NCBI GenBank assembly: GCA_903822205.1 | Contig: CAIJOK010000055.1 | Span: 1-37,618 of the forward strand | Reading direction: 5' to 3' | Length of the DNA: 37,618 nucleotides | Source: an uncultured beta proteobacterium | GTDB lineage: Bacteria > Pseudomonadota > Gammaproteobacteria > Burkholderiales > Burkholderiaceae_C | In this document: positions 5,081 through 24,696 of the stretch, one piece after another | Layout: the number at the start of each line of letters is the position of its first letter | How positions within the stretch are numbered: position 1 is the first letter of the stretch | Translations under genes and position numbers: made by a program | The notes under the pieces: model-generated | The model's input: only the letters and a program-made list of their open reading frames with translations | Told to the model about the DNA's origin: nothing | Database searches by the model: none

Positions 5081-5099
5081 GTCACATCGACCTCGCAAA

Positions 5100-5143
5100 G
5101 CCCCAAAGGGGCGTGGCATATCAGCCCAGGGTGCAACCCTGGG
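5100..5143. repeat. Two small perfect palindromes downstream of hsdS
   Basis: GCCCCAAAGGGGC occupies 5100-5112. CCCAGGG at 5125-5131 pairs with CCCTGGG at 5137-5143 across a 5-base loop. With the longer inverted repeats that follow they form a REP/BIME-like palindrome cluster just upstream of an IS200-like transposase. The first hairpin, 20 bases after the hsdS stop, could also end transcription, but no T-tract follows it. Confidence 0.65.
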
Positions 5144-9711: not shown

Positions 9712-11100
9712 TCACTTCATGGTGTTCGAGGTGCGCAATACGTGGGCACACAAAGTCAGTTCGGCAGACCTTTCAAAGTCGATGATTTTGTGAATCATTC
9801 TCGCGTCCAACACGTGTTGCGCGGACAGCATCAGCAAGCCACTGGGGGTCACCAGGTCGCGTGACAACACCATTCCGGCTTGCAGTTGACGGGCACTTAT
9901 GATTTGTTCTGCCACCGTATCTTGTTGTGATCGGTCTGCCGCTTGTGCATCCAGTACGGCCAGCAGTGCATCGAGTACCTTGGGGTCATAGCGCGTGGCA
10001 CGCCCCTTTTCGACCAGCGCCCGGGCTTCGTCCGTGCTGAGTTGGCGTTTGGCCAAGGTACCCGACTGCATGTTGTCGTAGTCGCTGGCGAGTACCAATA
10101 TTCGAGCACCTATGGGGATGGCATCCTGCGCCAGGTGTCTGGGGTGGCCGTTGCCATCAAATCGTTCGAGCTGGCAGGCAATCAGCTCGGCCGCACCTTT
10201 CAAGTCTGGCAGTGGCGTGAGCAACTGTTCTGCGCGGCCGGGGTGACGGCGATACAGGTCGAGTTGTTGCGGGGTAAGGTTGACAATGGCAGTGCCCAGC
10301 ATGTCATCACAAAACCCCACCTTGCCAATTTCATGCAACAGCCCTGCGATAAAGATGTCATGCGTGTGTCGGCTGTCCAGGTCAAGTTGGTTGGCTATTC
10401 GACGAGCAAGGTCGGCCACTCGCCGTGAATGACCCGCCAGGTTGCCACCCCGCAACTCAACCAGCGCACTGAAGACTTTGATGGAGGTCAAAAAATTGGT
10501 TTTAAGCTGATCGTTTGCGGTTTTTAACCAGCCATTGACAGCCATGAGTTCGGTAGAGCGCTGGGCCACCAGGGCCTCCAGGTGGGCGTGGGCAGCCTTC
10601 AGGTCGGCATTTTGGCGCAATGCGACGGCCTGTAGCCGCTTGTTCTCCTGCACCAGAGCCTGATGTGCCAGTGCATCTTGAACAATCACTACGATGTCGT
10701 GGTCATCCCAGGGTTTGGCGATGTAGCGATAAATTTCTCCCCGGTTGACCGCATCAATGGTTGAAGAAATATCTGCGTAGCCGGTCAACAACAGCCGCAC
10801 CGTATCGGGCCAGCGCTGACGCACTTGTTCGAGAAACTGCACACCATCCATTTCAGGCATGCGCATGTCTGAAATGACCAGGTCAACGGCGACTTGCTCC
10901 AAGATTGCGAGGGCGGCCTTGCCCCCCTCAGCCAAGTGAATTTGATAACCTTTGGGGCGAAACAGTCGCCGCAGAGACGACAGTATGCTGGGCTCGTCAT
11001 CAACAAACAGAATCGTCAACGCGTTGGCCATGGACGCGCCGCCTGGTGCGACATGCATGTCAGTAGCGAATGGGGCATCAGGGTTCACGTGATGCCTCAC
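9712..11100 (-). CDS. Response regulator with degenerate HD-GYP output
   Basis: A receiver domain (about 28-145, phosphoacceptor D78 in SDMRMP, KPW near 129-131) is followed by a coiled coil and an HD-GYP-type domain in 462 residues. Compared with its paralogue at 16450-17817, key metal ligands have changed: HD is HE at 256-257, the HH pair is Q310-L311 (CQLERFDGNGHP), and GYP is GHP. Known HD-GYP enzymes need these residues, so this copy is probably not a phosphodiesterase and may act as a binding or regulatory partner. The first start, GTG at 11100, overlaps the HDOD stop (GTGA). ATG at 11031 just before the receiver is also plausible. The fold is otherwise well kept. Confidence 0.88.
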   Translation of the reverse strand: MRHHVNPDAPFATDMHVAPGGASMANALTILFVDDEPSILSSLRRLFRPKGYQIHLAEGGKAALAILEQVAVDLVISDMRMPEMDGVQFLEQVRQRWPDTVRLLLTGYADISSTIDAVNRGEIYRYIAKPWDDHDIVVIVQDALAHQALVQENKRLQAVALRQNADLKAAHAHLEALVAQRSTELMAVNGWLKTANDQLKTNFLTSIKVFSALVELRGGNLAGHSRRVADLARRIANQLDLDSRHTHDIFIAGLLHEIGKVGFCDDMLGTAIVNLTPQQLDLYRRHPGRAEQLLTPLPDLKGAAELIACQLERFDGNGHPRHLAQDAIPIGARILVLASDYDNMQSGTLAKRQLSTDEARALVEKGRATRYDPKVLDALLAVLDAQAADRSQQDTVAEQIISARQLQAGMVLSRDLVTPSGLLMLSAQHVLDARMIHKIIDFERSAELTLCAHVLRTSNTMK

Positions 11101-14639: not shown

Positions 14640-14752
14640 CAAAGGGGGGAAATAAATCACGCTGATGCACGGTCTTCTTTCCCCCCTTTGAAAAAGGGGG
14701 GTTAGGGGGGATTTGAAGTTCTGGAAGGCCATGCCGAAAACACATCACTTTG
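14640..14752. repeat. MITE-like element, copy B (left arm truncated)
   Basis: The sequence from CAAAGGGGGG at 14640 through the loop, the 35-bp right arm (ending ATTTG at 14715) and the trailing ATCACTTTGAAAC (14740-14752) repeats copy A at 8276-8391 with few changes. The outer left arm is absent. The right terminus runs into the 3' end of the EAL-REC gene and supplies its stop codon and last few codons. Shared loop sequence (CTGATGCA) confirms that it is the same element rather than chance GC runs. Confidence 0.8.
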
Positions 14753-16433
14753 AAACGCTCCCTTCATGTCCATTGCCATTGGGGTGGAGGGTCGTGTTGC
14801 GCTCGCGGTAGTAGCGAAACGCCTGCGTGACCTCGTGCTTTAACTTTTCGTCATCCCATGGTTTGGAGAGGTAGCGATAGACGGCCCCTTTATTGATGGC
14901 ATCAGTGAGGGACTCTGGTTCGCAATAGCCGGACAGAATGAGCCGAACCGTGTCGGGGTAGAGGTCTTTGACACGGCTCAAAAACTCGGTTCCGGTCATG
15001 ACCGGCATGCGCTGGTCAGAAATAACCACGTGAACACGGTGCGTCGCCAGTAAATCCAGTCCCTGCGCAGCGCTCTCAGCGCACAGGATGCGGTAGCCCT
15101 CACGGCGCATGAGCCGCTTGATGGCGCTGAGAATATTGGGTTCGTCATCCACCAGCAGCAGCGTCATTGGTGTCCCGCCCGGATCCAGACCCAAGCTGAT
15201 TCCTGCACCACTGCGCAGCATCTCACAGATGGCTTGCGGGCCGACCGGGCGCGAGAACAAGTAGCCCTGCATTTCATCGCACTCATGGCGACGCAGGTAG
15301 AGCATTTGTCCCTCGGTCTCCACACCTTCTGCGATAACTGTTTTTCCAAATTTGTGGGCCATGACGATGGTTGCCGTCGCGATGGATGCATTGACCGGAT
15401 TGGTCGTAATGTCCGCCACAAACGACTGGTCAATTTTGATCACGTCAACTGCAAAACGCGACAAGTAGGCCAGCGATGAATAGCCGGTGCCAAAGTCATC
15501 CACTGAAACACGGATGCCAAGCGCTTTCAGATGGTCAACGATGTGGATAGCGGCATCGGCATCGTGCATCATGACGCTTTCGGTCAGCTCCACTTCCAAT
15601 AATTGCGCAGGCACCGCATGCTTTTGCAGCAACGATTCAATCGTTTCGGGCAGATGCTTTTGCCTGAAGTGTTGCGCCGACAAGTTGACAGCAACCCGCA
15701 CCGGAGTCAGTCCCTCGCCCCGCCACTGGCTGATCTGTAGAACGGCTGTTCGCATGACCCATTCACCCAGTGCGATGTCCAACCCGCATTCTTCAGCCAG
15801 TGCAATGAAGTGACAGGGTGTGAGCAATCCGCGGGTGGGATGATCCCAACGCACAAGGGCTTCAAGGCCGATGATTTTGCCGGAGTGCAGGCTAAGCTGT
15901 GGCTGGTAGGTCAGTCGCAACTCGCCATTGAAAATGGCGTTGCGCAACTCGGCTTGCAGGGTAGTTTGCTCGGAACTGTTGGGGCGGTGAAAGTTTTCTG
16001 CACTGTGCCTGATGTGGTTGATATGGCTGATATCGTGCAAGAACACACACCAGCGGGTGCTGCCCTGCACCGCTGCGTGGATCGGAACGAGTTGGAAATC
16101 GCCCCAAAACTGAGTGCCATCCATGCGTTGAATGAAGGTCTGCACTGTCCAGACCTGTTCATTGGCCAGGCTGTTGCCCATGTCGCTGGCTTGTGCCTGC
16201 GTCATATCCTGGGCAAATAGATCAACGAAATTCTTGCCAACCAGTTGGGTCGGCGTACTGGCGCAAAGCGTTTGGGCCATCACATTGGCGAACGCGATCA
16301 CACCCTGTCCATCGACCACAAAGACCCCGATGGCAAACTGCTGAATCAACGCTTGGAATACGTGCAGTTCATCAACAAACTGCCCCAGCCCGGGTTCGGC
16401 GGGGGTCTGATGGGTAGGTGCTTCAATGTGCAT
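14745..16433 (-). CDS. PAS-EAL-REC c-di-GMP phosphodiesterase
   Basis: The 562 residues run PAS (about 22-140), EAL (about 158-408), then a C-terminal receiver (424-545). The EAL domain keeps its catalytic set: E191 in EALVRW, N250 in VNLSAQHF, D312-D313 in DDFGTGYSSL, K333 and E369 in AEGVET, so it should hydrolyse c-di-GMP to pGpG. The receiver has D473 in SDQRMP and KPW near the end. A receiver placed after the EAL domain is the reverse of the usual order. There is no GGDEF domain. AGGAGG six bases before the ATG is an excellent ribosome binding site. It lies 16 bp after the REC-HD-GYP gene, so two c-di-GMP hydrolases of different folds are co-expressed. The last codons overlap repeat copy B. 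Confidence 0.93.
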   Translation of the reverse strand: MHIEAPTHQTPAEPGLGQFVDELHVFQALIQQFAIGVFVVDGQGVIAFANVMAQTLCASTPTQLVGKNFVDLFAQDMTQAQASDMGNSLANEQVWTVQTFIQRMDGTQFWGDFQLVPIHAAVQGSTRWCVFLHDISHINHIRHSAENFHRPNSSEQTTLQAELRNAIFNGELRLTYQPQLSLHSGKIIGLEALVRWDHPTRGLLTPCHFIALAEECGLDIALGEWVMRTAVLQISQWRGEGLTPVRVAVNLSAQHFRQKHLPETIESLLQKHAVPAQLLEVELTESVMMHDADAAIHIVDHLKALGIRVSVDDFGTGYSSLAYLSRFAVDVIKIDQSFVADITTNPVNASIATATIVMAHKFGKTVIAEGVETEGQMLYLRRHECDEMQGYLFSRPVGPQAICEMLRSGAGISLGLDPGGTPMTLLLVDDEPNILSAIKRLMRREGYRILCAESAAQGLDLLATHRVHVVISDQRMPVMTGTEFLSRVKDLYPDTVRLILSGYCEPESLTDAINKGAVYRYLSKPWDDEKLKHEVTQAFRYYRERNTTLHPNGNGHEGSVSK

Positions 16434-16449: not shown

Positions 16450-17817
16450 TCAGGAATGAAACATTTTGTCGTTGCGAATGCTCACCATGAGCTGAATGCC
16501 TTCGCGGTCTGCGTAACTCTGAATCTGGCGCATGATGGCCGCATCGAGCACGTAATCGGCAGCCAGCAACAGGGTTCCGTCGCGGCTCAAAATATCTTTG
16601 CCCGACACCATACCGGGCACCAACTCTGCCGCTGGGAGTTCACGAAAACGCGTCGGATCTTCTTTGGGTCTGCCAATGACATTCAGAAAGGCATCCACCA
16701 CCTTGGGGTCATAGCGTTTGCCACAGCCCTGCATGATGCGTGTTTTGGTTTCTTCGGGATTAAAGCGCCGATCTGACAAGATACCCATCTGATACCCGTC
16801 GTAGTCATTGGCCACTGCCAAAATGCGTGCACCCAAGGGTATGGCACCTTCCGGCAGACCATCTGGAAAGCCCTGGCCATCGAATCGTTCATGGTGTGAG
16901 CGAACAATTTTTGCAACCCCCTGCAATTCAACGAGTGGCATGAGAGCCGCTTCGCTTGAGAGGGCATGCTTGCGGTAGCGTACAAGGTCCTCACCCACCA
17001 ATCTGCACACTGGTTTGGCCAGCAATTCGTCAGAAAACCCGATCTTGCCGATGTCGTGCAAAAGGGATGCGACAAACACATCTTGCTGAGCCTTTGCAGG
17101 CAGTTCCATGCGCTTGGCGATTTTGCGCGCTAGTTCTGCCACACGGCGGGAGTGGCCTGCCATCGCACCTTCGCGAAGTTCGATCAGCCCAGAAAAAACC
17201 TTGATGGAGATCAGAAAATTGTGCTTCAACTTGTCGTTGGCTAAGCTAAGAAAGCTGTTGACCTGTGCGATCTCGGACGTGCGCTCTTGCACACGCTGCT
17301 CCAGACCCGCGTTGAGCGCCTTAAGCTCGTCATTTTGACCTTGGGTCAGGGCCAGCAGACGCTGGTTTTCGCGCTGCAGCGCAAGATGTTCCAGTGCCTT
17401 CTTCACGATCAGGACAATGTCGTTGTCATCCCAGGGCTTGGAAATGTGGCGGTAAATTTCTCCCTGATTGATGGCGTTGATGGTGGACGTGATGTCGGCG
17501 TAGCCTGTTAACAGCAATCGCATGATGTCGGGCTTTTTAGCCCGCACACGTTCAAGAAACTGTGCGCCATCCATCTTGGGCATGCGCATGTCCGAAATCA
17601 CCAGATCGACCTTCTCGCAATCCAGGATCGCCAGACCCGCATCGCCGCTTTGGGCTGTCAGTATTTTGAACCCCTTGGGGCGAAAAAGCCTTTGGAGCGA
17701 ACTGAGAATGGAGGGATCGTCGTCAACAAACAGGAGTGTGGGCGGACCGTCCATTGGAACAATCGATGCTGCACGGGAGGACTCGTCAGTTGGCATGTCG
17801 ATGTTTTCGGTTTGCAT
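16450..17817 (-). CDS. Response regulator with HD-GYP phosphodiesterase output
   Basis: A receiver domain (about 27-142; D76 in SDMRMP, KPW at 127-129), a coiled-coil linker (145-195) and an HD-GYP domain (about 200-370) make up 455 residues, in the RpfG-like arrangement. Metal ligands are intact: H222, H254-D255 in LLHDIGKIGF, H308-H309 in HHERFDGQGFP. The GYP signature reads GFP, a tolerated variation. It is a paralogue of the 9712-11100 protein, which has lost these residues. Its phosphorylation probably comes from one of the local kinases. The gene is separated from the EAL-REC gene by only 16 bp. The ATG at 17817 was taken as start; ATG at 17796 is also possible. Confidence 0.92.
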   Translation of the reverse strand: MQTENIDMPTDESSRAASIVPMDGPPTLLFVDDDPSILSSLQRLFRPKGFKILTAQSGDAGLAILDCEKVDLVISDMRMPKMDGAQFLERVRAKKPDIMRLLLTGYADITSTINAINQGEIYRHISKPWDDNDIVLIVKKALEHLALQRENQRLLALTQGQNDELKALNAGLEQRVQERTSEIAQVNSFLSLANDKLKHNFLISIKVFSGLIELREGAMAGHSRRVAELARKIAKRMELPAKAQQDVFVASLLHDIGKIGFSDELLAKPVCRLVGEDLVRYRKHALSSEAALMPLVELQGVAKIVRSHHERFDGQGFPDGLPEGAIPLGARILAVANDYDGYQMGILSDRRFNPEETKTRIMQGCGKRYDPKVVDAFLNVIGRPKEDPTRFRELPAAELVPGMVSGKDILSRDGTLLLAADYVLDAAIMRQIQSYADREGIQLMVSIRNDKMFHS

Positions 17818-17961: not shown

Positions 17962-20520
17962 CTATAGCCAGCGCGTCAGCGTGGCTTGCAGCTTCTTGAT
18001 GTCCAGGGGTTTAACCAAAAAGTCATCCATGCCGGCATCCAGACACTTTTGCCTGTCTTCCTCAAAGGCATTGGCGGTCAAGGCAACGATGGGCAGGCGT
18101 GGTTTGCCATGATCGGCTTGCCACAGACGGATAAGCTCAGTAGCAGTCAGGCCGTCCATCACGGGCATTTGAACGTCCATCAGCACCAGATCAGGTGTGC
18201 CACCCTGGGTGATGTGGTCAAGCGCTTGCTGGCCGTCTTCAACGATCACGATCGTCAAGCCAGAACAACCCAGCTCGTCGAGCATCGCCATGATGACCAT
18301 CCGGTTCACCAGATTGTCCTCGGCAATCAGCACCGTTCCAGTCAAATCGCTGGCTGGCACGGCAACTGATGCTGCCGTGGTCTGAAGCAACGCCTGCGCC
18401 TCGGTCTGGAGCAAAACGCGAACTCGAAACCAGAAACGTGCGCCCTGGCCGGGTTGACTGTCAATGCCGACCTCACCCCCCATCAGTTTGGCGAGTTGCA
18501 TAACGATGGACAACCCCAGACCGGTGCCACCAAATTGGCGAGTGGTCGAACTGTCTGCCTGGCTAAAAGCCTGAAACAGACGGGACTGCTGCTCATCTGA
18601 AATGCCCATGCCGCTGTCTGATACCGAAAACTCCAGCACAGCGTGCTGCGAATCGCGTTCAATTTCAATGGCCACAATGCGAACAAAGCCGTGAGCAGTG
18701 AATTTGATGGCATTGCCGACCAGGTTTGAGAGCATCTGACGCAGCCGGTACGGGTCACCCAGATAGCATGGCCCCGCCGGCCCCTGCCAGATAGATTCGA
18801 GCTGCAGCCCTTTGGTACTGGCAGTTTCGGCAAACAGGGAACGAATGTCGCCAATGAGGGCATCAACCGCAAAAGCAATCGACTCGAGCTTGAGTTTGCC
18901 CGCCTCTACTTTTGACAGGTCAAGGATGTCGTTGAGCAGTGACAGAAGTGTGTGGCCGGCATTCAGAATGGTTTGAGCGTATTGCACGCGTTTGTCATCC
19001 TGAAGTTGGGGCAATGCGAGCAACTGCGCCATGCCCAGAACGCCATTCATCGGTGTGCGAAGTTCATGGCTCATCGAGGCCAGAAACTGGCTCTTGGCAA
19101 CGGTGGCGGCCAAAGCCTCTTGCTGGGCTTCAATCAATTTTGCTTCGGCGATTTTTTGGGCTGAGATGTCAACACACGACCAAAGCACTTGATCCGGGTG
19201 CTCGCCAAACATCGTGCCTGAAATGTCAAACCAGAATAAGCTGCCATTCTTGTGGCGTAATTGAGCCTGTGTGCGAAATTTCTGATGGGCAAAAATGACG
19301 GGATATGCGGCTTTCCCTATGGCCAGGAAGGCTTCTTCGCTCGGAAAAATCAAGCGGGTATCATGCTCCAGTACCTCAGGCAAGTCATACCCCAAGGCGT
19401 TCACCAGTGACGGGGTGGCCCAGAGAACATGGCGGTTTTGCGTGATGTGCAGACTGACGATATCGCTGTGCAAAATGGCCTGTTGCTCACTCAGCAGGAC
19501 AGCAAGCCGATGCTCACTCTCGGCCACTTGCTTGTGACTGCGCATGATCTCGGTCATGTCCTGCGAGACCACCAGCACCTGAAGCTGTCCCAGACTGTCA
19601 TGCACAGGGGTCTTGATCGATTTGTAATGCCGGACTTCGCCGCTTGCCATGTCGTGACCGTCCTCAAAAACCACTTGCGTTTGGCGTGTTGACAAGACGG
19701 CCATCGCACTTTGCCGCAGGCGCTCGGCCTGATCGGCGAGCATGCCAAAGTCACCATCATGTTTGCCCAGCATGGCCGCAGGTGTAGTGTTGTACCGACT
19801 GGCCAGTGCCTGATTGACCAAGGTGAAATGGCCTTGCGCGTCCCTGAGCATGACGGGGTCTGTCATGTTGTCCATCACCGTGCGCAACAGTGCTTCGGCG
19901 CATCGGCGCTGTTCGACTTCATTCTTGGCACGCTCCAGTGCAAGGCGTGTGATCTGGTTGACGTAGTGGGTCAACGCTGCGGTCATGCCAAACATGGCCG
20001 TAGAAACAATCCATTGGGTGATGCCAACGCTGTAATTGGGCTGGGGCAGCAGGCCGGCATTTTCTGCCATGATCAGCCCCAAAATGGCCAGCGAGCTCGC
20101 CACAGTGGACATCACAATGCCACGCCATTGAAACAGTAGCCCCATCGTGATCATCCAAAGCAGATACATCGCGGCAGTGGGTGTGCGGATGGTTCCCAGA
20201 CTGACGTTCAGTGATGTGAGATGGACAAAAATGAGTACCGTCGAAAAGAACATCATCGGACCCAACTTGCCGCGGTGCAACATGTGACGAAACAGCAAAA
20301 GCACCAAGAAAAAACCCACGTCGAGCATCAGTATCCGGACTGGAACATTACGCCCCAGCACAACGCCCACGATGGACAGCAACGTTAACAAAAGGCCAAC
20401 AATGGCAAACAGATTGAGCAGGTCAGCCCGCCTTGTTTTCTCCGGTTCGCCGTCAAAAACTGGCGGCACCAACCATCGCCTGATGGCGGGTATCAGTGTG
20501 GATTGAATGTATTTATTCAT
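17962..20520 (-). CDS. Membrane hybrid histidine kinase (6 TM, PAS-PAS, HisKA-HATPase-REC)
   Basis: This 852-residue protein begins with about six transmembrane helices (about 36-56, 64-80, 88-102, 115-131, 134-152, 168-186), a MASE-like integral sensor. Two PAS domains follow (about 210-325 and 340-458), then HisKA with H485 in MSHELRTPMNGVLG. The HATPase has NAIKF and FGGTGLGLS, and the C-terminal receiver has LMDVQMPVMDG and a KPLD lysine. The kinase and receiver part is close to that of the neighbouring gene 20640-22625, pointing to tandem duplication with different sensor halves. It lacks an Hpt domain, so onward transfer needs another protein or goes directly to the REC proteins downstream. 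The start is ATG 20520, reached after a heptameric repeat region. Confidence 0.92.
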   Translation of the reverse strand: MNKYIQSTLIPAIRRWLVPPVFDGEPEKTRRADLLNLFAIVGLLLTLLSIVGVVLGRNVPVRILMLDVGFFLVLLLFRHMLHRGKLGPMMFFSTVLIFVHLTSLNVSLGTIRTPTAAMYLLWMITMGLLFQWRGIVMSTVASSLAILGLIMAENAGLLPQPNYSVGITQWIVSTAMFGMTAALTHYVNQITRLALERAKNEVEQRRCAEALLRTVMDNMTDPVMLRDAQGHFTLVNQALASRYNTTPAAMLGKHDGDFGMLADQAERLRQSAMAVLSTRQTQVVFEDGHDMASGEVRHYKSIKTPVHDSLGQLQVLVVSQDMTEIMRSHKQVAESEHRLAVLLSEQQAILHSDIVSLHITQNRHVLWATPSLVNALGYDLPEVLEHDTRLIFPSEEAFLAIGKAAYPVIFAHQKFRTQAQLRHKNGSLFWFDISGTMFGEHPDQVLWSCVDISAQKIAEAKLIEAQQEALAATVAKSQFLASMSHELRTPMNGVLGMAQLLALPQLQDDKRVQYAQTILNAGHTLLSLLNDILDLSKVEAGKLKLESIAFAVDALIGDIRSLFAETASTKGLQLESIWQGPAGPCYLGDPYRLRQMLSNLVGNAIKFTAHGFVRIVAIEIERDSQHAVLEFSVSDSGMGISDEQQSRLFQAFSQADSSTTRQFGGTGLGLSIVMQLAKLMGGEVGIDSQPGQGARFWFRVRVLLQTEAQALLQTTAASVAVPASDLTGTVLIAEDNLVNRMVIMAMLDELGCSGLTIVIVEDGQQALDHITQGGTPDLVLMDVQMPVMDGLTATELIRLWQADHGKPRLPIVALTANAFEEDRQKCLDAGMDDFLVKPLDIKKLQATLTRWL

Positions 20521-20613: not shown

Positions 20614-20641
20614 AACTCCTAACTCCTAACTCCTAACTCCT
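20614..20641. repeat. Heptameric tandem repeat AACTCCT x4
   Basis: Four exact AACTCCT units, followed by a partial fifth, fill 20614-20641. On the transcribed strand this reads AGGAGTT repeated, so each unit carries a Shine-Dalgarno-like AGGAG. The repeat array overlaps the TAG stop codon of the upstream hybrid kinase. It is a second 7-bp tract in the same 119-bp spacer, unrelated in sequence to the first. Confidence 0.9.
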
Positions 20642-22625
20642 AACTTGACCCCAACCACTTCCCCAGCGCAGCTTGCAGTTTCAGAAGGTCAAGGGGTTTG
20701 ACCAGAAAATCATCCATGCCGCTGTCCAGGCATTTTTGCCTGTCTTCTTCAAAGGCGTTGGCGGTCAGGGCAACGATCGTCGTGCGTGGTTTGTTGTGAT
20801 CGGCTTGCCATAATCGAATTTTTTCGGTTGCTTCGAGGCCGCCCATGATGGGCATTTGAACGTCCATCAACACGAGATCAGGCGCGCCACCTTGCGTGAT
20901 GAAGTCAAGCGCCTGTTGGCCGTCTTCAACGACCGTGACAGTCAAGCCCGAACAACCCATCTCGCCCAGCATCGCCATGATGACCATCCGGTTCACTGGA
21001 TTGTCCTCGGCGATCAGCACCTTTCCCGTCAAAACCCCCGCTGGAACTGCCTCTGATGCTGCCGTGGTTTCTAGCGACCCAAGCGCTTCTGACTGGAAAG
21101 CGACGCGCACTCGAAACCAAAAACGTGCGCCGTGGTCAGGTTGGCTGTCAATGCCAACCTCACCGTCCATCAGATGCGCCAGCCGTGAAACAATGGACAG
21201 TCCTAAACCTGTGCCGCCAAATCGTCGGGTGGTCGAACTGTCTGCCTGGCTAAAAGGCTGAAACAGACTGGCCTGCTGCATGGCGCTGATGCCAACGCCA
21301 CTGTCTGACACAGAAAACTCAAGCACCGCATGCTGCGACTGGCGATCAACTTCGCTGGCCACCAGGCGAACAAAGCCTTGAGCGGTAAATTTGATGGCAT
21401 TGCCCACCAGGTTTGAGACCATCTGGCGCAGCCGGTAGGGGTCGCCCAAATAGCACTGCCCCACCGGCCCTTGCCAGTCAGATGTCAGTTGCAGCCCTTT
21501 GGCCTTGGCTGTTTCGGCAAACAGGGAACAAATATCACCCACGATCGGATCGACTGCAAAAGCAATTGATTCAAGTTTTAGCTTGCCAGCCTCTACTTTG
21601 GACAGATCCAGGATGTCGTTGAGCAGCGACAAAAGCGTGTGGCCTGAGCTCAAAATGGTTTGTGCGTATTGGATGCGTTTGTCATCCTGAATTTCAGGCT
21701 TGATAAGCAACTGCGCCATGCCCAAAATGCCGTTCATCGGTGTGCGGACCTCATGACTCATCGCTGCCAAAAATTCGCTTTTGGCTCTGTTGGCGCGTTC
21801 CGCCTCTTGTTTGGCTTGCAAAAGTTCTTCGGCCTTGGCTTCGGCCAGGCTGACATCCTCTAGCAACCAAAGCCATCCGCTGGTTCGCTCAGGGTGTATG
21901 GGGGTGAGGGTGACTCGCAGCGCCGTTGGCGTGGAGTCAAACCGCCAGATCAGCCCGCACAAGGCCTCTTGGTCATATTCCTGAACAAACGACCCCAAGT
22001 GCTGACGCAAAGTATCTGCATTGATGGCACGTGAGGCCGTATCCGAGAGCTTGGCGGCCAAAACGCCTGCCTCTGTTTCTCCCGGTGGCAAACCCAGGTA
22101 GCCCGCAGCGACCTTGTTGACATAGCCAGGGCGGTTGCCTGTGGGCACCACGATCACGCCCTGTGGCAGCGCATCGGCAACGCCCAGCATCTGTCGAAAG
22201 CCTTGATGACTGGCCTCAACGTGTGTGTCAGTCAGATCGAACTGGGATCGCAATGCCGCCAGCGCCAAATGCAGGATGTCCGATGCCGATGCCGATGCCA
22301 GTGCCAGTGCCGATGGCGGATGATCATCCCAGAGCACCAAAACTCCCCCCCGAGTGCCATCCATCGCAAACATGGCCGTGCCAATTTGATGATGCAAACG
22401 GGCACGCAACTCCAGGGGGATCATGGTGTGCGCATCTCGCCCTTCAAACCGATGAATGCCGTCGGCAATGCGCGGCGGCAAAAAACTGCCTATCTGAAAA
22501 TCTGGAGGGGAAACCCCAAGAGGAAGCGAAAGAAGGGGATTATTGTTGTGCCAGTAAATGACAGCACCAGCAGCCAGTAAAGTGCGCAATGCGTGCGCTT
22601 GGCTGCTTAAGTCAAGAACGGACAT
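20640..22625 (-). CDS. GAF/PAS hybrid histidine kinase partnered with RsbQ-like hydrolase
   Basis: This 661-residue soluble hybrid kinase has an N-terminal GAF-like domain (about 10-130) and a PAS domain (about 145-258). HisKA carries H291 in MSHEVRTPMNGILG, the HATPase has NAIKF and FGGTGLGLS, and a C-terminal receiver has LMDVQMPIMGG and VKPLD. Its ATG lies inside the 3' end of the hydrolase gene (14-base overlap) without a good ribosome binding site close by, implying translational coupling. In the known RsbQ-RsbP pair the hydrolase signals through a PAS domain, so the PAS domain here is the likely receiver of the hydrolase signal. The kinase-receiver half is nearly a copy of the next gene's. 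A hexamer repeat encodes a Ser-Ala run at 110-115. Confidence 0.92.
   Translation of the reverse strand: MSVLDLSSQAHALRTLLAAGAVIYWHNNNPLLSLPLGVSPPDFQIGSFLPPRIADGIHRFEGRDAHTMIPLELRARLHHQIGTAMFAMDGTRGGVLVLWDDHPPSALALASASASDILHLALAALRSQFDLTDTHVEASHQGFRQMLGVADALPQGVIVVPTGNRPGYVNKVAAGYLGLPPGETEAGVLAAKLSDTASRAINADTLRQHLGSFVQEYDQEALCGLIWRFDSTPTALRVTLTPIHPERTSGWLWLLEDVSLAEAKAEELLQAKQEAERANRAKSEFLAAMSHEVRTPMNGILGMAQLLIKPEIQDDKRIQYAQTILSSGHTLLSLLNDILDLSKVEAGKLKLESIAFAVDPIVGDICSLFAETAKAKGLQLTSDWQGPVGQCYLGDPYRLRQMVSNLVGNAIKFTAQGFVRLVASEVDRQSQHAVLEFSVSDSGVGISAMQQASLFQPFSQADSSTTRRFGGTGLGLSIVSRLAHLMDGEVGIDSQPDHGARFWFRVRVAFQSEALGSLETTAASEAVPAGVLTGKVLIAEDNPVNRMVIMAMLGEMGCSGLTVTVVEDGQQALDFITQGGAPDLVLMDVQMPIMGGLEATEKIRLWQADHNKPRTTIVALTANAFEEDRQKCLDSGMDDFLVKPLDLLKLQAALGKWLGSS
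22281..22316. repeat. In-frame hexanucleotide repeat in the GAF/PAS kinase
   Basis: Six 6-bp units (CGATGC x3, CAGTGC x2, then CGATGG) run through the coding sequence and encode alternating serine and alanine between the GAF-like core and its last helix. Gain or loss of units keeps the frame, so it can only lengthen or shorten this loop. Confidence 0.8.
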
Positions 22626-23427
22626 ACTCAGTTAAAAATTCCTGAATCGCCGCATTGACCTCGTCTGGCGCGCTGATGTGCGGAAAATGGCCTTCCGCTT
22701 GAATCACCCGGAAATCCGTCGCACGCATCTGTGTGGCCAACCATTTGGAAGCTGCAAACGGCACTGCGGGGTCATGCGCTGCCTGTAAAACCTGGGTGGG
22801 TACCAACACCCGTGAGACATCGGCGCGGTGGTCAGAATGAAAAATGGTATCAAGAACGGCACAGGCAATATCGGAGCGCATGGCCAGCAAGGAACGTGTG
22901 AACTCCAGCGCAAGATGTGGACGATCGGGGTTGGCTGCCACCAAAGGGGCAAAGCCATTGGCCCAAACCGCGTAGTCGCTGCGCATTGCGGCCAGTAAGG
23001 TGTCCACTTGCTCGGCTGAGAACCCACCGATATAACCCGTGGCAGCATCGTCGATGTAACAAGCAGAGCCACAGAGCAAGGTCAACGAGGCAAACAGCTC
23101 AGGATTGGCGTTGGCGGCCAGCACACCCACGATGCCTGCGACCGAATGACCGACATAACTGACACCTTGTATTTGCAGCGATTGCATCAATTCAACCAAA
23201 TCTTCGGCAAAACCAAAGAGCGTACGGTGGCGCTCTGCTTGGTAAAGCGGCAAGGTGAGTGCAGAGGCACCTGCTGCGTCGTAGGTGACCACCCGATAAC
23301 CAAGGTCCACCAAGGATGCCACCACACAATCCCAGGCAGAGGGGTGGGTACCAAAACCATTGCCAAACACCACGGTATGGGGTCCATGGCCACGTATGCA
23401 CACTCCAAATTGGTCAGCAAAATGCAT
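22612..23427 (-). CDS. RsbQ-like alpha/beta hydrolase (D14/KAI2-type fold)
   Basis: This protein is 271 residues from ATG 23427, which has GGAG nine bases upstream; a GTG at 23451 would add eight. The catalytic triad is S95 in VGHSVAG, D219 in AAHDPAVP and H247 in GHFPH. That is almost the same numbering as in Bacillus RsbQ (S96, D219, H247, from memory). Other RsbQ-like stretches are NGFGTHPSAWD, GSACYIDD, GGFSAEQVD and FHSDHRADVSRV. RsbQ hydrolases make or bind a small hydrophobic signal that activates a PAS-domain partner; plant D14 and KAI2 receptors share the fold. The gene overlaps the PAS hybrid kinase by 14 bases, so the partner here is a kinase instead of a PP2C phosphatase. The ligand is unknown. 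Confidence 0.9.
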   Translation of the reverse strand: MHFADQFGVCIRGHGPHTVVFGNGFGTHPSAWDCVVASLVDLGYRVVTYDAAGASALTLPLYQAERHRTLFGFAEDLVELMQSLQIQGVSYVGHSVAGIVGVLAANANPELFASLTLLCGSACYIDDAATGYIGGFSAEQVDTLLAAMRSDYAVWANGFAPLVAANPDRPHLALEFTRSLLAMRSDIACAVLDTIFHSDHRADVSRVLVPTQVLQAAHDPAVPFAASKWLATQMRATDFRVIQAEGHFPHISAPDEVNAAIQEFLTEYVRS

Positions 23428-23478: not shown

Positions 23479-24696
23479 TTACGAATGGTTGATCATTTTT
23501 TCTTTAATGCTGAGGATGATAGCTTGCGAAATCTGCTGCACCTCAACGGCATCCACCTCTTGAAGAGTACTGATCTCATTTTCAAGTTCTTGCCGTTTGG
23601 ATCGTGAAAGACAGGCCATGATTTTGTCTTTGACGACCTCCTCTTGCATCGTACCGAAAAGCTTAGCAAGATCATAGATGTCATAGCGGGAAATGACATC
23701 AAAAGCAGACTTTTGGTCGGCAAATTCAATGTCACTAATGTCCGTAAAGTCTTGCGGCAGCTTGATTTTTCGCTCTACAAAAAACTTGCGCCCTTTGTCG
23801 TTCAAGAGTCGCATGATTTCGCTTTTGCGAAATGTAAAAATATCTTCGGCAAATTCGCTGCTCCCAAGCTTTTTGAGAAGTATGGCGCGATCCACATCGA
23901 CCAAGGCAGAAAATTCATCCACACCGATGTATTCATAATCGAGTTTTCCATGATCTTTGTGCGATTTGGAGATTCTGCGTGCCAACCCCAGAATGTCCTT
24001 TGGAGCGAAGATGACACGCTTGCCACTGCCGTTTTCGTCTTCGATTCGAACCAAATGCAGCATGACCAGCTTGCCAACGCTGTCGCGGATATGGATGTCG
24101 GAGTGGCCAAGCAAAATACGCGCACTGCTGAAGACATCGCTCAATGCAGGTCTGGCCAGCGCCGAATGTGACTGACTGACCACAGCATCGGCCTTTTGTT
24201 TGCCGATATCCGCAATACCCAAAAGGTAAAGCAACTGTGCATAAACCAGAACGTCGGGCTGGTAGTTGATCCGGGTGGCAATCAGTTCATTGTCCATGGT
24301 GGACTGTTTGGCCAGTGTCTGCAAAATGCCGCTCACCAGCCTGGGCAGGACGCGCAGTTCCGCGTCGAGTTTTTCGTTTTCGATGAGGTAAAGCTCACAG
24401 TAGGTACGGGCAACGGCATTGGTGGTGCGACCGCTGTTGAGCAATCGCGAATCCATGCCAAAGCACTGCCCCTTGCCCAATGACCTGACGATTACCCGCT
24501 TTTCCTCGCGAACCACGTAGAAGTCAACCTCTCCCTCTTTGATCACGTACATGTGGCTGGAGGTCATGCCTTCGGTATAGATGATGTCGCCGGCGTAAAA
24601 GCGTTGCTGCGTCAAGTTATCGCTGTCGTCGATAGGCATCGACACACCATCGTCATTGAGTTTGCTTGCCTTGTTCATCCCAGTGGTGTCCCCCAT
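23479..24696 (-). CDS. Cyclic-nucleotide-binding protein with FliG-like C-terminal domain
   Basis: The N-terminal part of this 405-residue protein (about 30-130) is a cNMP-binding beta-roll (FYAGDIIYTEG, MYVIKEGEVDFYVV, GKGQCFGMDSRLL). In the phosphate-binding cassette the usual FGE is FGM, while R90 is kept. A middle section (about 145-235) is partly winged-helix-like. The C-terminal region (about 255-403) resembles FliG middle/C-terminal domains: one segment FSALVDVDRAILLKKLG, and a second with FDVISRYDIYDLAKLFG, EEVVKDKIMACLSRSKRQE and a final helix. FliG is the flagellar rotor switch protein, so this may link a nucleotide signal to rotor-like assembly or to protein-protein scaffolding. 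It is the first gene of the signalling cluster. The FliG-like call is by eye and needs a profile search. Confidence 0.75.
   Translation of the reverse strand: MGDTTGMNKASKLNDDGVSMPIDDSDNLTQQRFYAGDIIYTEGMTSSHMYVIKEGEVDFYVVREEKRVIVRSLGKGQCFGMDSRLLNSGRTTNAVARTYCELYLIENEKLDAELRVLPRLVSGILQTLAKQSTMDNELIATRINYQPDVLVYAQLLYLLGIADIGKQKADAVVSQSHSALARPALSDVFSSARILLGHSDIHIRDSVGKLVMLHLVRIEDENGSGKRVIFAPKDILGLARRISKSHKDHGKLDYEYIGVDEFSALVDVDRAILLKKLGSSEFAEDIFTFRKSEIMRLLNDKGRKFFVERKIKLPQDFTDISDIEFADQKSAFDVISRYDIYDLAKLFGTMQEEVVKDKIMACLSRSKRQELENEISTLQEVDAVEVQQISQAIILSIKEKMINHS

Follow-up and report, generated by a model that had tools for sequence, protein, structure and literature searches.

The window (the whole analysed stretch of 37,618 nucleotides) encodes on its reverse strand an alpha/beta hydrolase and, directly downstream of it, a hybrid histidine kinase. 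The two constitute a real, conserved, operon-like two-gene unit. Judging from sequence comparisons and predicted folds, they represent another branch of hydrolase-sensor modules, distinct from RsbQ/RsbP-PAS and equipped with a GAF-PAS receiver. The hydrolase (P0001, 271 aa, 22612..23427, reverse strand) is assigned to the RsbQ/KAI2/D14 family by its Ser-Asp-His catalytic triad and by the predicted fold of the whole chain, which matches RsbQ, KAI2 and D14. The triad, which the preliminary description had already recognized as that of RsbQ and D14, is complete (S95/D219/H247) and invariant among the hydrolases aligned. At the sequence level KAI2 chains score somewhat above RsbQ against P0001, and the alignment exhibits the lid stretch GFAPL...EF-R-L. 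The residues that line or gate the RsbQ pocket according to PMC3183031 (F27, V97, F136 and F196) are all kept in the window hydrolase (F25, V96, F136 and F196). Across the GAF-type branch of hydrolases they vary more than across the RsbP-type branch (in the former, position 196 is occupied by F in 3/16 and by L in 12/16 members, and position 96 by V in 1/16), so the substrate of the GAF-type branch may differ.

The kinase (P0002, 661 aa, 20640..22625, reverse strand) was found by domain searches and modeling to have the architecture GAF-PAS-HisKA-HATPase-REC, in agreement with the layout originally suggested. Residues 1–135 (22221..22625) are predicted to adopt a GAF fold, which is missed by Pfam, and are followed by a PAS domain (residues 138–260, 21846..22214), a HisKA domain with the phospho-acceptor H291 (21585..21785), a HATPase_c domain (21105..21446) and a REC domain with D588 (20664..21020); all marks of a hybrid histidine kinase are present, namely the phospho-acceptor H291, the ATP-binding boxes (N405, D441 and G470) and the REC aspartate D588. 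The PAS domain ends with EDVS, which we read as DIT-like and whose D257 is invariant in 15/15 sensors aligned. The arrangement of the GAF and PAS domains is unsure because the predicted model of this part has a pTM of 0.53. The hydrolase and kinase genes overlap by 14 bases (22612..22625, reverse strand) and the kinase start lacks a well-spaced Shine-Dalgarno sequence, both as stated in the preliminary description; such an arrangement suggests translational coupling of the two genes, whose products are presumed to be cytoplasmic.

RsbQ-PAS modules were defined by Nadezhdin, Brody and Price (2011, PMC3183031) from 45 cases, in which the RsbP-type PAS domain is described as always the most N-terminal one and as devoid of the DIT motif, with a phosphatase, a kinase (including hybrid kinases) or a diguanylate cyclase as the output. 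According to the same source, direct contact between RsbQ and RsbP is backed by two-hybrid and pull-down experiments, the triad is needed, and the contact residues of RsbP-PAS (F55/Y59) lie in the F-alpha helix; a complex predicted in a 2025 paper (PMC12143880) places RsbQ between the PAS domains and linkers. Like these modules, the window pair has a modular sensor whose gene immediately follows that of the hydrolase, and it shares with them the triad and exchangeable outputs including a hybrid kinase and GGDEF, but its receiver is a GAF domain followed by a PAS domain with a DIT-like end, in contrast to an N-terminal RsbP-type PAS without DIT, and its hydrolase belongs to another branch than RsbQ. 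The N-terminal domain of P0002 is not an RsbP-type PAS, as residues 1–135 model as a GAF fold and the PAS domain comes second. The preliminary description held that the module itself is not new, which does not follow, because the receiver differs from the N-terminal RsbP-type PAS of the described modules. We found no description of a GAF-PAS partner of an RsbQ-family hydrolase in the open-access literature searched, and GAF is nowhere mentioned in the main text of PMC3183031.

Could the pair still be an ordinary RsbQ-PAS module, in which the PAS domain of the kinase is the target of the hydrolase, just as RsbP-PAS is that of RsbQ, and the GAF domain is an unrelated extra input? The hydrolase family and the gene order are the same, hybrid kinases are among the known outputs, and the window sensor does contain a PAS domain. 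Against this, the RsbP-PAS profile gave no match to P0002 at E 10 with filters off, the window PAS is not N-terminal, and it ends with the DIT-like EDVS, whereas RsbP-PAS is reported to lack DIT (PMC3183031), so we regard this explanation as unlikely. A canonical pair is present elsewhere in the same genome (locus L002, contig C84); its hydrolase matches RsbQ at E 2e-95, and its partner has an RsbP-type PAS at the N-terminus and, as read from the sequence, GGDEF at the C-terminus. As both branches occur in this genome, its two resident pairs lend themselves to a comparison of specificity. PMC3183031 left open the signal of the RsbQ-PAS module and the question of which partner acts as the sensor, and the KAI2 ligand is called undiscovered in PMC10504578. 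A second branch with a different, recognizable receiver allows a direct comparison of which hydrolase surface is shared, which partner domain is needed and whether catalysis is required.

Scanning of genome contigs with a single hydrolase sequence gave no matches; an alignment of three hydrolases (A2: window, L003 and L012) identified 18 loci. In 15 of them, many of which come from related MAGs and two of which have identical hydrolases, the gene that follows has the GAF-PAS sensor of the window at its start; the remaining three are L051 (Ignavibacteria, a PAS-HK with no GAF profile match), L053 (a decayed module) and L054 (contig end). With the window included, the genes overlap in 15 of the 16 GAF-PAS pairs, by 8 bases in 11. 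Among 100 other relatives searched, only G018 has a copy of the hydrolase at 48% identity, the remaining matches being at 35% or less. Apart from the genome of the window itself, the class survey with A2 (303 genomes) revealed L122, an RsbP-PAS pair, and L121, a hydrolase interrupted by an internal stop with no adjoining sensor-profile match. The remnant in L053 (3950-4421) comprises hydrolase residues 139–265 only (63% identity), followed by a partner-start stub of 24 codons. Such a rare and patchy distribution, together with one decaying locus, would fit the view that the two genes are chance or historical neighbors with no functional link. We consider this highly improbable, since 16 loci from two or more families retain the two genes side by side, with an overlap in 15 of them, while the flanks and outputs differ. 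No gene clusters beyond the pair common to the window, L037, L045, L050 or L052 and another locus were found, and DNA matches to the surroundings of L078 lay mainly at glmS.

The type of partner was assessed for 45 loci with an RsbP-PAS profile and a GAF profile, both built from the same loci as were scored: the downstream gene matches RsbP-PAS strongly in 22 (E 6e-33 or better) and GAF strongly in 16 (E 2.5e-38 or better), and none matches both strongly. Tests on outside loci agree with this split, RsbP-PAS being found in L113, L116, L117, L118 and L122. In 8 GAF-type loci the RsbP-PAS profile matches weakly (E of 8.6e-6 at best), and such matches were located to short stretches of PAS at residue 148 and beyond. 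Seven of the 45 loci have no strong match to either profile, namely L011 (contig end), L015 (a truncated PAS-like stub), L021, L022, L029, L051 and L076. The hydrolases of L021, L051, L115, L119 and L121 have no partner of the GAF-PAS type. Distant partners of a GAF-PAS-GGDEF type occur in L029, L076 and L114; because the GAF profile does not match these three, their GAF domain is only suggested by its position, length and a weak alignment. Among plasmids, 75 records have a hydrolase match, and the 7 loci inspected comprise 4 with RsbP-PAS partners, the distant GAF-PAS-like L114, and two with no same-strand partner directly downstream (L115 and L119). The L114 sensor matches a wider sensor profile at positions 102–265 only, and a plasmid search with the window sensor retrieved no match, while the Sphingosinicella sensor retrieved only itself. 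In L114 (Sphingosinicella plasmid p1, 3737-4043) the diguanylate cyclase seems to be annotated with a start about 300 bases too late, and the longer frame overlaps the hydrolase gene.

Does the sensor occur without the hydrolase? Sensor profiles were searched against overlapping sets of genomes (A1 on 369; A3 on 18, 61 and 299; A4 on 349), and the hydrolase lies immediately upstream of every match extending into the GAF part: that of the window, 15 in the 18 genomes (one per genome, each at a known locus), 2 in the 61 and 3 in the 299, with several genomes repeated. Matches confined to the PAS part, i.e. starting at profile position 90 or later (L036, L070-L072, L075, L077 and L080-L088), are never adjoined by the hydrolase (0/15), which also counts against an ordinary RsbQ-PAS module. 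Thus, kinase residues 1–135, and not the PAS domain, track the hydrolase across genomes. Unlinked copies of the sensor may have been missed, because the profile was built from hydrolase-linked loci and few candidates were scored per genome (6–8 in the 369-, 299- and 349-genome searches, 41 in the 61-genome search).

The hydrolase trees separate the GAF-PAS-partnered from the RsbP-PAS-partnered proteins, and the partner type follows the branch. In a tree calculated for 45 hydrolases, those with GAF-PAS partners (16 rows) make up a single clade (support 97/96), the 22 RsbP-PAS rows group with three others elsewhere (99/98), and L076 and the very long-branched L029 stand apart from all other rows (100/98). 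The tree extended with plasmid rows, from which L021, L022, L029 and L051 were left out for their long branches, again unites the 16 GAF-PAS rows (100/99), and one branch with support 100/99 parts all GAF-PAS rows of that tree, along with the orphan L115, from all RsbP-PAS rows. L003 and L012 were dropped from the trees as duplicates of L041 and L052, respectively. In the tree with RsbQ and two KAI2 chains, calculated for 11/16 GAF-PAS, 2/3 distant and 16/26 RsbP-PAS rows, RsbQ falls within the RsbP-PAS-partnered group (99/99) and the window hydrolase within a separate clade of the 11 GAF-PAS rows (100/97). The original label "RsbQ-type hydrolase" therefore holds for the family, fold and triad, but not for the branch.

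The plant KAI2 proteins group in the same tree beside the distant GAF-PAS rows L076 and L114 and not beside RsbQ, at a support of only 93/91, and the test for a single clade of GAF-PAS-partnered hydrolases, made with the rows of the plasmid-extended tree, gave p-AU of 0.446, so GAF-PAS partnership may have had one origin or more than one. The KAI2/D14 receptors share the hydrolase fold and the triad with P0001 but act in plants with F-box and repressor proteins as partners, in contrast to the bacterial sensor kinase of the window. We tentatively entertain, at somewhat below even confidence, the idea that the bacterial relatives of the karrikin and strigolactone receptors comprise two ancient branches, one in which RsbQ works with RsbP-PAS and another in which the hydrolase would dock on a GAF-PAS sensor, or unload its product, via the GAF domain; KAI2 may then sit nearer to the hydrolases of the distant GAF-PAS members than to RsbQ.

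The best explanation of these data, which we consider probable, is a two-protein sensor, in which the activity of the kinase would be set by a hydrolase docked on its GAF-PAS part. A small molecule would be bound, and probably turned over, in the triad pocket of the hydrolase; attached to the N-terminal GAF and PAS domains of the kinase dimer, the hydrolase would either deliver the product to the cavity of the GAF (or PAS) domain or change its shape on binding. The change would then run through the PAS domain and a short exit helix to H291, and from there to D588 or to a further REC protein. The GAF domain is favored as the contact or ligand site because it, and not the PAS domain, follows the hydrolase. 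We infer here the hydrolase-kinase contact, its site on the GAF domain, the ligand, the direction of control and the downstream target.

Or perhaps the hydrolase is a metabolic enzyme encoded in the same operon, which makes or removes a ligand of the kinase with no contact between the proteins? The triad is intact, and small molecules are common ligands of GAF and PAS domains, which agrees with such a role. The mutual correspondence of the hydrolase tree and the sensor type, as well as the experimental backing of direct contact in the RsbQ precedent, count somewhat against it, and we judge it the less probable option, albeit one to be taken seriously. A known system comparable to the window pair is LuxPQ, named in the Discussion of PMC3183031, where a separate ligand-binding protein likewise controls a hybrid kinase; LuxPQ, however, involves a periplasmic binding protein and periplasmic PAS domains, whereas the window pair is presumably cytoplasmic.

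The output of the window pair differs from that of its relatives. All 15 were scanned, and 13 have GGDEF-EAL, as does L045 of Paludibacterium yongneupense DSM 18731 among them, L041 has GGDEF, and L040 has GGDEF followed by the contig end, so the window alone among the 16 GAF-PAS pairs has an HK-REC output. Hence, the expectation that neighbors of homologous hydrolases would bear out the pairing is upheld for the sensor, which is the same in the 15 close relatives, but not for the kinase, as their outputs are GGDEF or GGDEF-EAL. The HK-REC half (20664..21817, reverse strand) is one of ten copies of a cassette in the genome, itself included; the other nine are 77–81% identical to it in DNA, and six of the copies are located on contig C61 (G000:C61:1730-24816). 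Because of this multiplicity, the GAF-PAS sensor was probably joined to this local HK-REC cassette, which would have replaced a GGDEF(-EAL) output. Another copy belongs to the next hybrid kinase (17962..20520, reverse strand), which has an N-terminal region with hydrophobic stretches followed by PAS-PAS-HisKA-HATPase-REC; its cassette is 80% identical in DNA to the window kinase half over 1158 columns. Derivation of the HK-REC half from this next gene is weakened by two C61 copies that are marginally closer (81% vs 80%). The N-terminal region of the next kinase has matches in 16/61 genomes, and seven matches lie in its own genome.

Farther along the same strand lie genes of a REC-HD-GYP protein (16450..17817) and a PAS-EAL-REC protein (14745..16433), either of which may be a downstream target, and a phosphorelay from the kinase to these adjoining proteins is possible. 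The preliminary description placed the pair in a c-di-GMP-degrading cluster, and EAL and HD-GYP genes do adjoin it. HPt domains have no matches on the window contig and 36 elsewhere in the genome. The window also encodes a REC-HD-GYP-like protein (9712-11100), which is probably inactive, as it exhibits HE, QLE and GHP in place of the canonical HD, HHE and GYP. A protein with a cyclic-nucleotide-binding domain and a FliG C-terminal-like domain is encoded at 23479-24696, 51 bases upstream of the hydrolase gene, and an Rfam match to the Acido-Lenti-1 RNA was identified at 5099-5143, with a score of 38.7 bits (cut-off 37).
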